Positions 257 to 12,688 of a stretch of 64,000 nucleotides of DNA are shown here, piece by piece. Each line of letters begins with the position of its first letter. The first letter of the stretch is position 1. Under the pieces are notes generated by a model. It was not told the origin of the DNA. It saw nothing but the letters and a program-made list of their open reading frames with translations, and ran no database searches. This DNA is from Flavobacteriales bacterium (GTDB taxonomy: Bacteria > Bacteroidota > Bacteroidia > Flavobacteriales_D > Crocinitomicaceae), in NCBI GenBank assembly GCA_947449575.1, contig CANFRV010000022.1, forward strand, positions 1-64,000, in the 5' to 3' direction. A program made the position numbers and the translations under genes.

Positions 257-1543
257 ATGAGCGAAATAGCTAAATTAGAATTAAACGGTCAAATATTCGA
301 ATTCCCTGTAATAGAAGGAACTGAGAATGAAAAAGCAATCGATATTAGTTCATTAAGAACAAAAACTGGATATATCACTATTGATCCAGGATTTAAAAAT
401 ACAGGTAGTTGTGAAAGTGCTATTACTTTTTTAGATGGAGAACTGGGTATTTTAAGATACCGTGGTTATCCGATTGAACAATTGGCGGAAAAAGCAAGTT
501 TTCTAGAAGTAGCCTATTTATTAATTTATAAGGCGCTTCCAACCCAACAAGAATTAGATTCATTTATAAATAGCATTACTAAACACACTTTAGTGGCTGA
601 AGATATGAAACAATTTTTTGAAGCGTACCCAGCAAAAGCTCATCCTATGGGAGTTTTAGCATCTATGGTATGTTCTTTATCCACTTTTTATCCAGAATCA
701 TTAGATCCTAATAGAAGTCCTGAAGCAAAAGACTTAACGATGCATCGCTTGCTTGGTAAATTACCAACATTAGCTGCATGGTCACACAAAAATGCTTTAC
801 GTCATCCATTTATGTATCCTAAAAATTCTTTAGATTATTGTTCGAATTTCATGCACATGATGTTTGCAATGCCTACTGAAGAATACACCGTAGATCCAGT
901 TATTTCTGCAGCATTAAATAAATTACTAATACTCCATGCGGATCATGAACAAAATTGTTCTACTGCAACCGTTAGAGTTGTAGGTTCTTCGCAATCAAAT
1001 TTATATTCAACGATTTCTGCTGGAATTTCAGCTTTATGGGGACCTCTGCACGGTGGAGCTAATCAAGAGGTAATTGAAATGCTTGAGCAAATCCAAAACG
1101 ACGGAGGAGATATTGATAAATGGGTTTTAAAAGCAAAAGATAAAAATGACTCATTCTTATTAATGGGCTTTGGACACAGAGTATACAAAAACTTTGATCC
1201 ACGTGCAAAAATCATTAAAAAAGCATGTGATGATATATTGGAAAAATTAAATGTAAACGATCCATTATTAGCCATTGCAAAAAGATTAGAACAAGTTGCA
1301 TTAGAAGATGAATATTTTAAATCTAGAAATTTATATCCAAACGTAGATTTCTATTCCGGAATTATTTACCGTGCACTTAATATTCCAACTGAAATGTTTA
1401 CTGTGATGTTTGCTTTAGGTCGTCTACCAGGGTGGATTTCTCAATGGAAAGAAATGACTGAAGGAGGTGAACCAATCGGTAGACCAAGACAAGTATATAC
1501 TGGTGCTGTTGAGCGCGACTATGTAGATATTTCTAAAAGATAA
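257..1543 (+). CDS. gltA: Citrate synthase (type II)
   Basis: This enzyme condenses oxaloacetate with acetyl-CoA to citrate, the entry step of the TCA cycle, in the cytoplasm. The 428-residue length matches the hexameric bacterial type II form. The three catalytic residues are all visible: His265 in LHGGANQEV, His307 in GFGHRVYK and Asp364 in NVDFYSGI. The N-terminal beta-rich segment (MSEIAKLELNGQIFEFPVIE) is also typical of the type II family. It starts at an ATG without an obvious Shine-Dalgarno site, as is usual for Bacteroidota. It stands alone: a terminator lies upstream (86-124) and a strong hairpin downstream (1610-1646). I could not find a convincing TAnnTTTG promoter in 125-256. Identification is secure. 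Confidence 0.97.
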   Translation: MSEIAKLELNGQIFEFPVIEGTENEKAIDISSLRTKTGYITIDPGFKNTGSCESAITFLDGELGILRYRGYPIEQLAEKASFLEVAYLLIYKALPTQQELDSFINSITKHTLVAEDMKQFFEAYPAKAHPMGVLASMVCSLSTFYPESLDPNRSPEAKDLTMHRLLGKLPTLAAWSHKNALRHPFMYPKNSLDYCSNFMHMMFAMPTEEYTVDPVISAALNKLLILHADHEQNCSTATVRVVGSSQSNLYSTISAGISALWGPLHGGANQEVIEMLEQIQNDGGDIDKWVLKAKDKNDSFLLMGFGHRVYKNFDPRAKIIKKACDDILEKLNVNDPLLAIAKRLEQVALEDEYFKSRNLYPNVDFYSGIIYRALNIPTEMFTVMFALGRLPGWISQWKEMTEGGEPIGRPRQVYTGAVERDYVDISKR

Positions 1544-1548
1544 GTTGA

Positions 1549-1722
1549 AGACTCTAGATTTTAGACGATGGTTTAAGACTTTAGATTTTTAGACGTTAGA
1601 CATTAGACAAAAAAGCGATTACTAACTATGTTAGTAATCGCTTTTTCATGTAAAACCTTTAAGTCTAAAATCTAAAAATCTAATCTCTAAATATCTAAAT
1701 ATCTAAATGTCTAAATGTCTAA
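1549..1722. repeat. Short tandem units in inverted orientation around a hairpin
   Basis: Both sides of the central hairpin at 1610-1646 consist of degenerate 7-9 base units. The left side (about 1549-1608) is built on TTTAGA and TTAGAC. The right side (about 1657-1722) is built on TCTAAAT and GTCTAAA, the reverse complements. The two sides can therefore pair in several registers and extend the central stem. The element fills the space between the convergent citrate synthase and methyltransferase genes. Confidence 0.75.
1610..1646. terminator. Bidirectional terminator hairpin, 17-bp stem
   Basis: The arms at 1610-1626 and 1630-1646 are perfectly complementary (AAAAAGCGATTACTAAC and its reverse complement) around a three-base TAT loop. 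A-tracts and T-tracts flank both sides, so it can end transcripts from both converging genes. Confidence 0.85.
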
Positions 1723-1724
1723 AA

Positions 1725-12609: not shown

Positions 12610-12630
12610 TTCATTTAATTTTTAAATTTT

Positions 12631-12686
12631 AATGTTTGATGTTTGATGTTTGATAAAAAATTCAACATCAAACATTCAACATCAAA
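12631..12686. repeat. Inverted repeat of tandem heptamers between convergent genes
   Basis: The left arm (12631-12654) has three ATGTTTG heptamers in tandem. The right arm (12661-12686) carries the reverse-complementary CAAACAT/CATCAAA units. The arms can fold into a long hairpin around AAAAAA and probably serve as a terminator for both neighbours. The right arm ends 2 bases before the stop codon of the J-domain gene. Confidence 0.75.
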
Positions 12687-12688
12687 AA

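Follow-up and report, generated by a model that had tools for sequence, protein, structure and literature searches.

The inverted array of TTAGAC-type words between the citrate synthase and methyltransferase genes of a Flavobacteriales bacterium is one copy of an intergenic repeat that is dispersed across the genus. It lies in contig CANFRV010000022.1 of assembly GCA_947449575.1, of which a stretch of 64,000 nucleotides (positions 1 to 64,000), here called the window, was analysed. The repeat is real and of a broadly familiar kind. With moderate confidence we regard it as an old repeat of the REP/MITE type whose copies are mostly fixed and which at this site is wrapped around a probable bidirectional terminator; both its mobility and its function are inferred. 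Small, non-autonomous and REP/MITE-like, the arms would have spread in an ancestor of the genus, after which most copies would have become fixed; slippage would gain and lose units, and the central hairpin of the present copy may have been renewed by template switching. Those copies that are transcribed would act as long RNA hairpins at the ends of transcripts.

Layout of the locus and its core hairpin

The intergenic gap (1544-1724, 181 bp) holds the inverted-repeat feature at 1549-1722, which is composed of two opposed arms, with TTAGAC words on the left and their GTCTAA complements on the right, and a hairpin in the middle. The components of the locus, together with a second element farther along the window, are as follows.

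257..1543, forward strand: citrate synthase gene (gltA; PF00285, E 1.3e-137), upstream of the element
1549..1569, forward strand: extra partial left-arm copy (weak arm-model match, E 0.067; a 19-nt direct repeat at 27-nt spacing)
1576..1608, forward strand: full left arm of dispersed family 1 (arm-model E 3.1e-10)
1610..1646, no strand: perfect hairpin of 17 bp with a 3-nt loop, read directly, with an A-run and a T-run at its foot
1663..1688, reverse strand: right arm of family 1, inverted (arm-model E 0.0059)
1680..1723, reverse strand: outer right array of 8-nt TCTAAATN units (TRF 1664-1723), two units more than in the relative L005
1725..2945, reverse strand: RlmL-type THUMP RNA methyltransferase gene, convergent with gltA (PF01170, PF02926, PF22020)
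12628..12688, no strand: second element, TTTGATG words facing their complements, dispersed family 2

A preliminary description, made from the letters alone, had named the two flanking genes, and the Pfam matches bear it out. It had also proposed facing TTAGAC/GTCTAA arrays around a perfect 17-bp hairpin, and these are indeed present: the gap contains 32 inverted 8-mer matches, where 1000 dinucleotide shuffles never gave more than 13, and the core stem, AAAAAGCGATTACTAAC/GTTAGTAATCGCTTTTT, forms 17 perfect pairs (1610-1626 with 1630-1646) closed by the loop TAT. With the hairpin set aside, the arms have 15 reverse-complement 8-mers in common (mean 2.5, maximum 15 in 2000 shuffles), a value that equals the shuffle maximum and so places the test at the extreme of its control, not beyond it. 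The best inverted pair measures 29 nt at 83% complementarity, and the two arms differ in length. As for the proposed 7-mer unit, the tandem arrangement stood and the clean heptamer did not; TRF finds TCTAAATA in 7.8 copies at 1664-1723 and TTAGACA in three copies at 1589-1609, and the unit is one of 7-8 nt with a TAGA core.

Read as RNA, positions 1520-1750 have a predicted fold of -66.6 kcal/mol (z -7.2). No Rfam model matched the feature at its gathering score, and the five sub-threshold matches, of 20.6-24.3 bits against cut-offs of 72-82, comprised four to miRNA hairpin models and one to sau-19. The core hairpin is probably a bidirectional intrinsic terminator; a stem-loop followed by a T-run can be read directly on both strands. 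The terminator scan reported none at this site, which we attribute to the pairing of the A/T runs inside the stem.

It is very unlikely that the entire feature amounts to an ordinary bidirectional terminator, flanked by low-complexity sequence and without further meaning. Such a reading has a parallel in several of the more distant relatives, whose short gap holds, by eye, a hairpin of other sequence with A/T runs and no arms (in some relatives there is, again by eye, almost no gap between the two genes), but the arms described here belong to a dispersed family that is found in all gene orientations, and the reading therefore stands for the core hairpin only. The armless hairpins also agree with the earlier remark that the feature is more than a terminator needs. 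On the REP/MITE-like reading, the repeat at this site would enclose the probable bidirectional terminator of two convergent genes, so that both mRNAs would end in a 3' tail of the same TTTAGAC words, and RNA that reads through would form a single long hairpin.

A second element of the same design had been placed near 12.6 kb, and it was recovered there, with TTTGATG in 3.9 copies at 12628-12654 (TRF) and complements that reach 12688. Its arms have 13 reverse-complement 8-mers in common (mean 1.9, maximum 14 in shuffles), and its entire gap has 17 inverted matches against a shuffle maximum of 16. As a query, this element matched all 12 genomes of the genus (16 matches in the source genome of the window, 34 in G001, 43 in G004, and 1-16 in the others), and these matches define family 2. 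Within this family the arms of one locus are 0.82 identical (n=2) versus 0.86 between loci, a sample too small to count.

A dispersed family in the genus

The dispersal of family 1 was revealed by DNA searches with the gap sequence, which at E <= 0.01 matched 12 of 12 genus genomes; the possibility raised at the outset, that such arrays might be absent elsewhere and absent in relatives, is thereby dismissed. Among the best candidates scored (at most 40 per genome, with several matches per locus possible), there were 22 matches in the source genome, 62 in G001, 21 in G002, 19 in G003, 8 in G004, 9 in G005, 18 in G006, 23 in G007, 8 in G008, 20 in G009, 6 in G010, and 3 in G011, many of them in the left arm (query positions 29-71). 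Exact-word patterns were too strict and missed the family: TCTAAATNTCTAAATNTCTAAA occurs in the source genome only at this site (3 overlapping hits), and TTTAGACNTTTAGAC occurs in 3 of 40 genomes, the source genome among them. An iterated profile, built from 41 sequences (40 loci fetched for their hits plus the window) and drawing 58 hits at E <= 0.1, yielded the arm consensus AGACATTAGATTTTTAGACATTAGACATTAGAC, with TAGA every 7-8 nt. The strict pattern TTAGATTTTTAGANNNTAGANNNTAGAC, allowing one mismatch at most, is present in 11 of 12 genus genomes (9 sites in the source genome, 44 in G001) and in 2 of 97 others, at one site each, and the reversed pattern, used as a control, is present in 0 of 109 genomes. 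Within 844 kb of the source genome (780 kb not selected for hits, plus the window, out of 3.53 Mb in 69 contigs) there are 7 arms at 6 loci, one of these being the locus in the window, and none in shuffled sequence.

The anatomy of the arms was read from 34 sequences, namely 13 stretches of the source genome and 20 of G001 that were picked for their hits, and the window, which together hold 51 arms at E <= 1e-3. Fifty of these 51 are intergenic, with no overlap of more than 10 nt with an ORF of at least 90 aa, the ORF background in the sampled source genome being 89%. An arm is about 33 nt long, with TAGA cores 7-8 nt apart and variable spacers. Alignment of 53 arms shows the four cores to be nearly invariant, with the G conserved in 201 of 202 instances and the last A in all 202, and the positions between the cores carry 0.58 to 1.86 bits. 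A cassette of stop codons, in which a TAG every 7 nt would reach all frames, was considered and is disfavoured by these counts, since the G is kept though TAA also stops, and the A that follows TAG is invariant.

The same counts would suit an array of binding sites, in which the TAGA cores are kept for a DNA- or RNA-binding protein and the facing arms orient either strand, and so would the inward orientation of 9 of 9 opposed pairs. Orthologous copies in the source genome and G002 differ at 9 of 227 core positions (4.0%) and at 16 of 164 spacer positions (9.8%; p 0.034), as counted by gapped alignment of 15 arm pieces from 9 locus pairs, with 2 gapped pieces excluded. This contrast gives a weak hint of constraint on the TAGA cores, weak because the model used to select the copies itself favours cores. 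In a comparison made inside single arrays, for 30 of the 54 surveyed, the 147 invariant columns exceed a mean of 122.6 (maximum 133) under a generous null, but a conservative null has a mean of 146.9, and there is then no excess. The same design is also written in other words (TTTGATG, CACAGAG), which a single protein would not be expected to read, and the binding-site reading comes without a protein candidate; overall we consider it quite unlikely.

The order of the arms was scored at 38 loci, of which 9 carry an opposed pair, all of them inward (plus then minus) and none outward, 4 carry two arms on the same strand, and 25 a single arm at E <= 1e-3. The loops of the 9 paired copies are 11-88 nt long and by eye appear unrelated; a variant with a second arm type has sequence that is common to several loci. 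The preliminary description had placed both elements between convergent genes, and a preference for such gaps is not supported by the comparison: 6 of the loci lie between convergent genes, 6 between divergent genes, and 25 between genes on the same strand (1 is unclassed), and the 6 convergent cases among 37 classed loci from the source genome and G001 compare with 58 of 407 gaps in the source genome alone (p = 0.75). The presence of copies between divergent genes (6 of 38) means that a terminator role cannot be general. A folding z of -2 or lower was obtained at 18 of 38 loci (windows of 97-234 nt) and in 4 of 40 intergenic stretches that served as controls and, at 110 nt, differ in length from the loci; 20 of the 38 loci did not reach it.

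The second arm type, TCAGTCTTTGAGCGAAGCGGTCT, can face a TTAGAC arm. Allowing up to 4 mismatches, it was found at 8 places in the 844 kb (L067:17238; L084:10625; 3 places in L109; L117:8430; L125:14868; L127:8561), a count made without a control.

The same sites in relatives

The locus L005, which probably belongs to the same genome as G002, has 99% protein identity and 94.7% DNA identity over 12.8 kb. Its gap measures 139 bp, versus 181 bp in the window, and is without about 27 nt of the left arm, a segment within which the partial copy at 1549..1569 falls, and without 16 nt, or two 8-nt units, of the right arm. The second element differs from its counterpart in L005 by one 7-nt unit (3 versus 2). 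The comparison of unit number with a close relative, which had been suggested along with the idea of unit slippage or duplication, thus yields differences of 27, 16, and 7 nt that uphold this idea, and a further difference of 15 nt occurs at L264/L362. By eye, L016 retains TTAGATTTTTAGAC-type arms in this gap, and L004 and L006 have traces only.

One pair of the core stem has changed in a compensatory way between the window and L005 (T.A to C.G), and in place of the loop TAT L005 has ATA, its exact reverse complement (a loop inversion). In the accessible text of PMC8794818 no evidence for replication template switching is rated stronger than a compensatory change combined with a loop inversion, and such cases are described as extremely rare. 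Template switching as treated there matches the change in the core hairpin; it may account for how the central hairpin is maintained, but not for the dispersed arms. In a small loop hairpin at another site, one pair reads T.A in the source genome (L263), T.G in G002 (L357), and C.G in G001 (L287), a series that is as expected for stepwise compensatory change.

These observations also bear on the proposal that the feature is a by-product of mutation, with slippage making the units and template switching making or repairing the inverted copies, and with neither function nor mobility. Indels of unit size speak for it, as does the joint change of stem and loop, but the 33-nt word order common to tens of loci would be hard to obtain by local mutation, and the arms of one locus are no more alike than others. 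Their mean identity is 0.797 (n=10) as compared to 0.847 for arms of different loci (n=1350), which speaks against recent copying between arms and hence against the earlier suggestion that one arm had been copied to the other. A purely mutational origin is accordingly judged improbable.

The REP/MITE-like reading draws instead on the persistence of copies at orthologous sites. Fifteen G002 loci were fetched for family-1 hits (L211, L223, L353-L364, L372), of which 11 were comparable; L360 and L372 (no counterpart among the source-genome stretches compared), L361 (aligned on one side only), and L364 (no arm) were left out. The arm is present in both genomes at 9 of the 11 sites, is partial at 1 (L359/L076, where the copy of the source genome is partly changed), and at 1 a different palindrome stands in the source genome instead (L363/L116). 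For 6 of the 11, the counterpart had itself been fetched because the source genome had a hit there; the 5 counterparts in stretches not selected for hits comprise 3 intact, 1 partial, and 1 replaced copy. With the arm present in both at 9 of 11 sites, most copies of the repeat are fixed between closely related species. Sites common with the more distant G001 (L263/L287, L269/L291) were found because both carry the element, and G001, the genome richest in copies, may have seen a more recent spread. At the exchanged site, L363:1473-1621 in G002 is a TTAGAC element and L116:14239-14392 in the source genome is an unrelated CCCTCCTTGAGGAGGG-type palindrome, so that one repeat seems to have been replaced by another.

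Neither of the two changed sites among the 11 is a clean empty site. The mobile palindromic repeat of the preliminary description holds in one respect, as a repeated palindromic element with genus-wide matches; dispersal is what is seen, and mobility is what we infer from it, as neither a target-site duplication nor a clean empty site nor a transposase came to light. A further difference involves a TTTGATG array with orthologous flanks, where about 2 kb are extra in G002 (L075:1996-2267 versus G002:C19:20129-22106).

Facing word arrays and known repeat systems

A genome search for arrays paired with their reverse complements, as the preliminary description had advised, found that the two elements of the window have company. 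The 1193 intergenic gaps surveyed in the sampled genomes contain 54 tandem arrays, versus about 2 per shuffle round, with periods of 7, 8, and 9 commonest; the sample was not entirely blind, since it took in the window, L128, 6 stretches out of 19 from G016, and, from another set of 20, 10 stretches picked around word hits already known. Reverse-complement 7-mers of the arrays recur elsewhere in the same gap 181 times versus 58.8 expected (maximum 92), and at least 2 such matches accompany 22 of 54 arrays versus 13.5 (maximum 21), so that facing partners are common, not universal. Array words are common between genomes in 126 pairs versus 67.6 (maximum 89), a count that includes orthologous loci and is raised by AT-rich words, in the observed and control values alike.

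Palindromes of CACAGAG words are found at three loci of the source genome (L076:11267-11460; L083:13589-13876; L128:6068-6615), the first of them with the same design around a hairpin; of the 247 Bacteroidota genomes sampled, 8 contain the CACAGAG pattern, the source genome being one of them. CTCAACC hexamer arrays were noted at L069:11293-11405 and L111:13558-13633; as a query, L069 gave 45 matches in G001, 43 in G007, and 6 in G002, most of them to the array among the matches listed. One could speculate that several families of a single undescribed class coexist in Bacteroidota genomes, each with facing arms of 7-8 nt words of its own (TTAGAC, TTTGATG, CACAGAG, and others). Selection would keep the word core as a signal for binding or processing where transcripts end, the families would evolve by unit slippage and by template switching at hairpins, and now and then one would take the place of another at a site. 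This idea is put forward tentatively and as an unlikely one.

Among known systems, the RAYT-type REPs are nearest in behaviour, and two of their defining features fail here. According to the accessible text of PMC3733652, REP and BIME sequences have many intergenic copies, often with opposite units able to fold together, and form lineage-restricted families, several per genome, all of which resembles the present repeat. The REPs of that text are GTAG-/CGTC-tagged palindromes associated with RAYT genes, whereas the arm described here, AGACATTAGATTTTTAGACATTAGACATTAGAC, is a string of 7-8 nt words that is not self-complementary and lacks GTAG/CGTC. In the 24 loci with a PF01797 match (1.7-3.4 kb each, from 9 of 12 genomes) there was one weak arm match (E 0.1) and no RAYT association, and a RAYT-driven REP was rejected on these two grounds. 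The RAYT genes of L305, L307, and L309 (in G004, G007, and G001) lie amid another palindromic repeat, of CCTGAAAGGG and CGATGGG words.

A MITE identity is possible. BrickBuilt of Porphyromonas gingivalis is likewise an intergenic element of a member of the Bacteroidota, with inverted ends and internal tandem repeats; in the accessible text of PMC4596501 its layout is one of 23-nt tandem units between a leader and a tail, with small inverted ends, whereas here the inverted arms are themselves the tandem units. The loops of paired copies look unrelated, which is not what a typical MITE would show, an interior being common at best to a variant, and no known transposase goes with such inverted (AGACATTAGATTTTTAGAC) ends. 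An integron attC site was also considered, as GTTAGAC and GTCTAAC resemble attC core sites, and was set aside because the orientation of the arms is the reverse of that in the attC layout.

Cyanobacterial STRR sequences are heptanucleotide repeats of intergenic regions, and the features of such LSSR/STRR-type repeats that recur here are an intergenic tandem array with a period of about 7 nt and a unit number that varies between relatives. The TAACTGA repeats of PMC4679880 are similar in having a 7-nt unit at many intergenic loci, and five Bacteroidetes are listed in its accessible text as carrying TAACTGA; they are direct repeats of one word that in the main genome lie mostly just upstream of start codons. 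The present repeat differs from these heptanucleotide arrays in its facing inverted arms, its conserved core with variable spacers, and the several words per genome. Among the open-access entries listed, a body of literature that most subscription journals lie outside, none described this family.

Short tandem words are easily mistaken for local low-complexity noise, and here their order is common to tens of loci. The family may be a signal at transcript ends, in a bacterial group whose 3' ends have, to our knowledge, been little studied. If the proposed history is true, the repeat would serve as a marker family for the lineage and as a compact site at which to watch slippage and the template switching of hairpins over short times, and it would link the heptamer repeats of bacteria with palindromes of the REP/BIME type.
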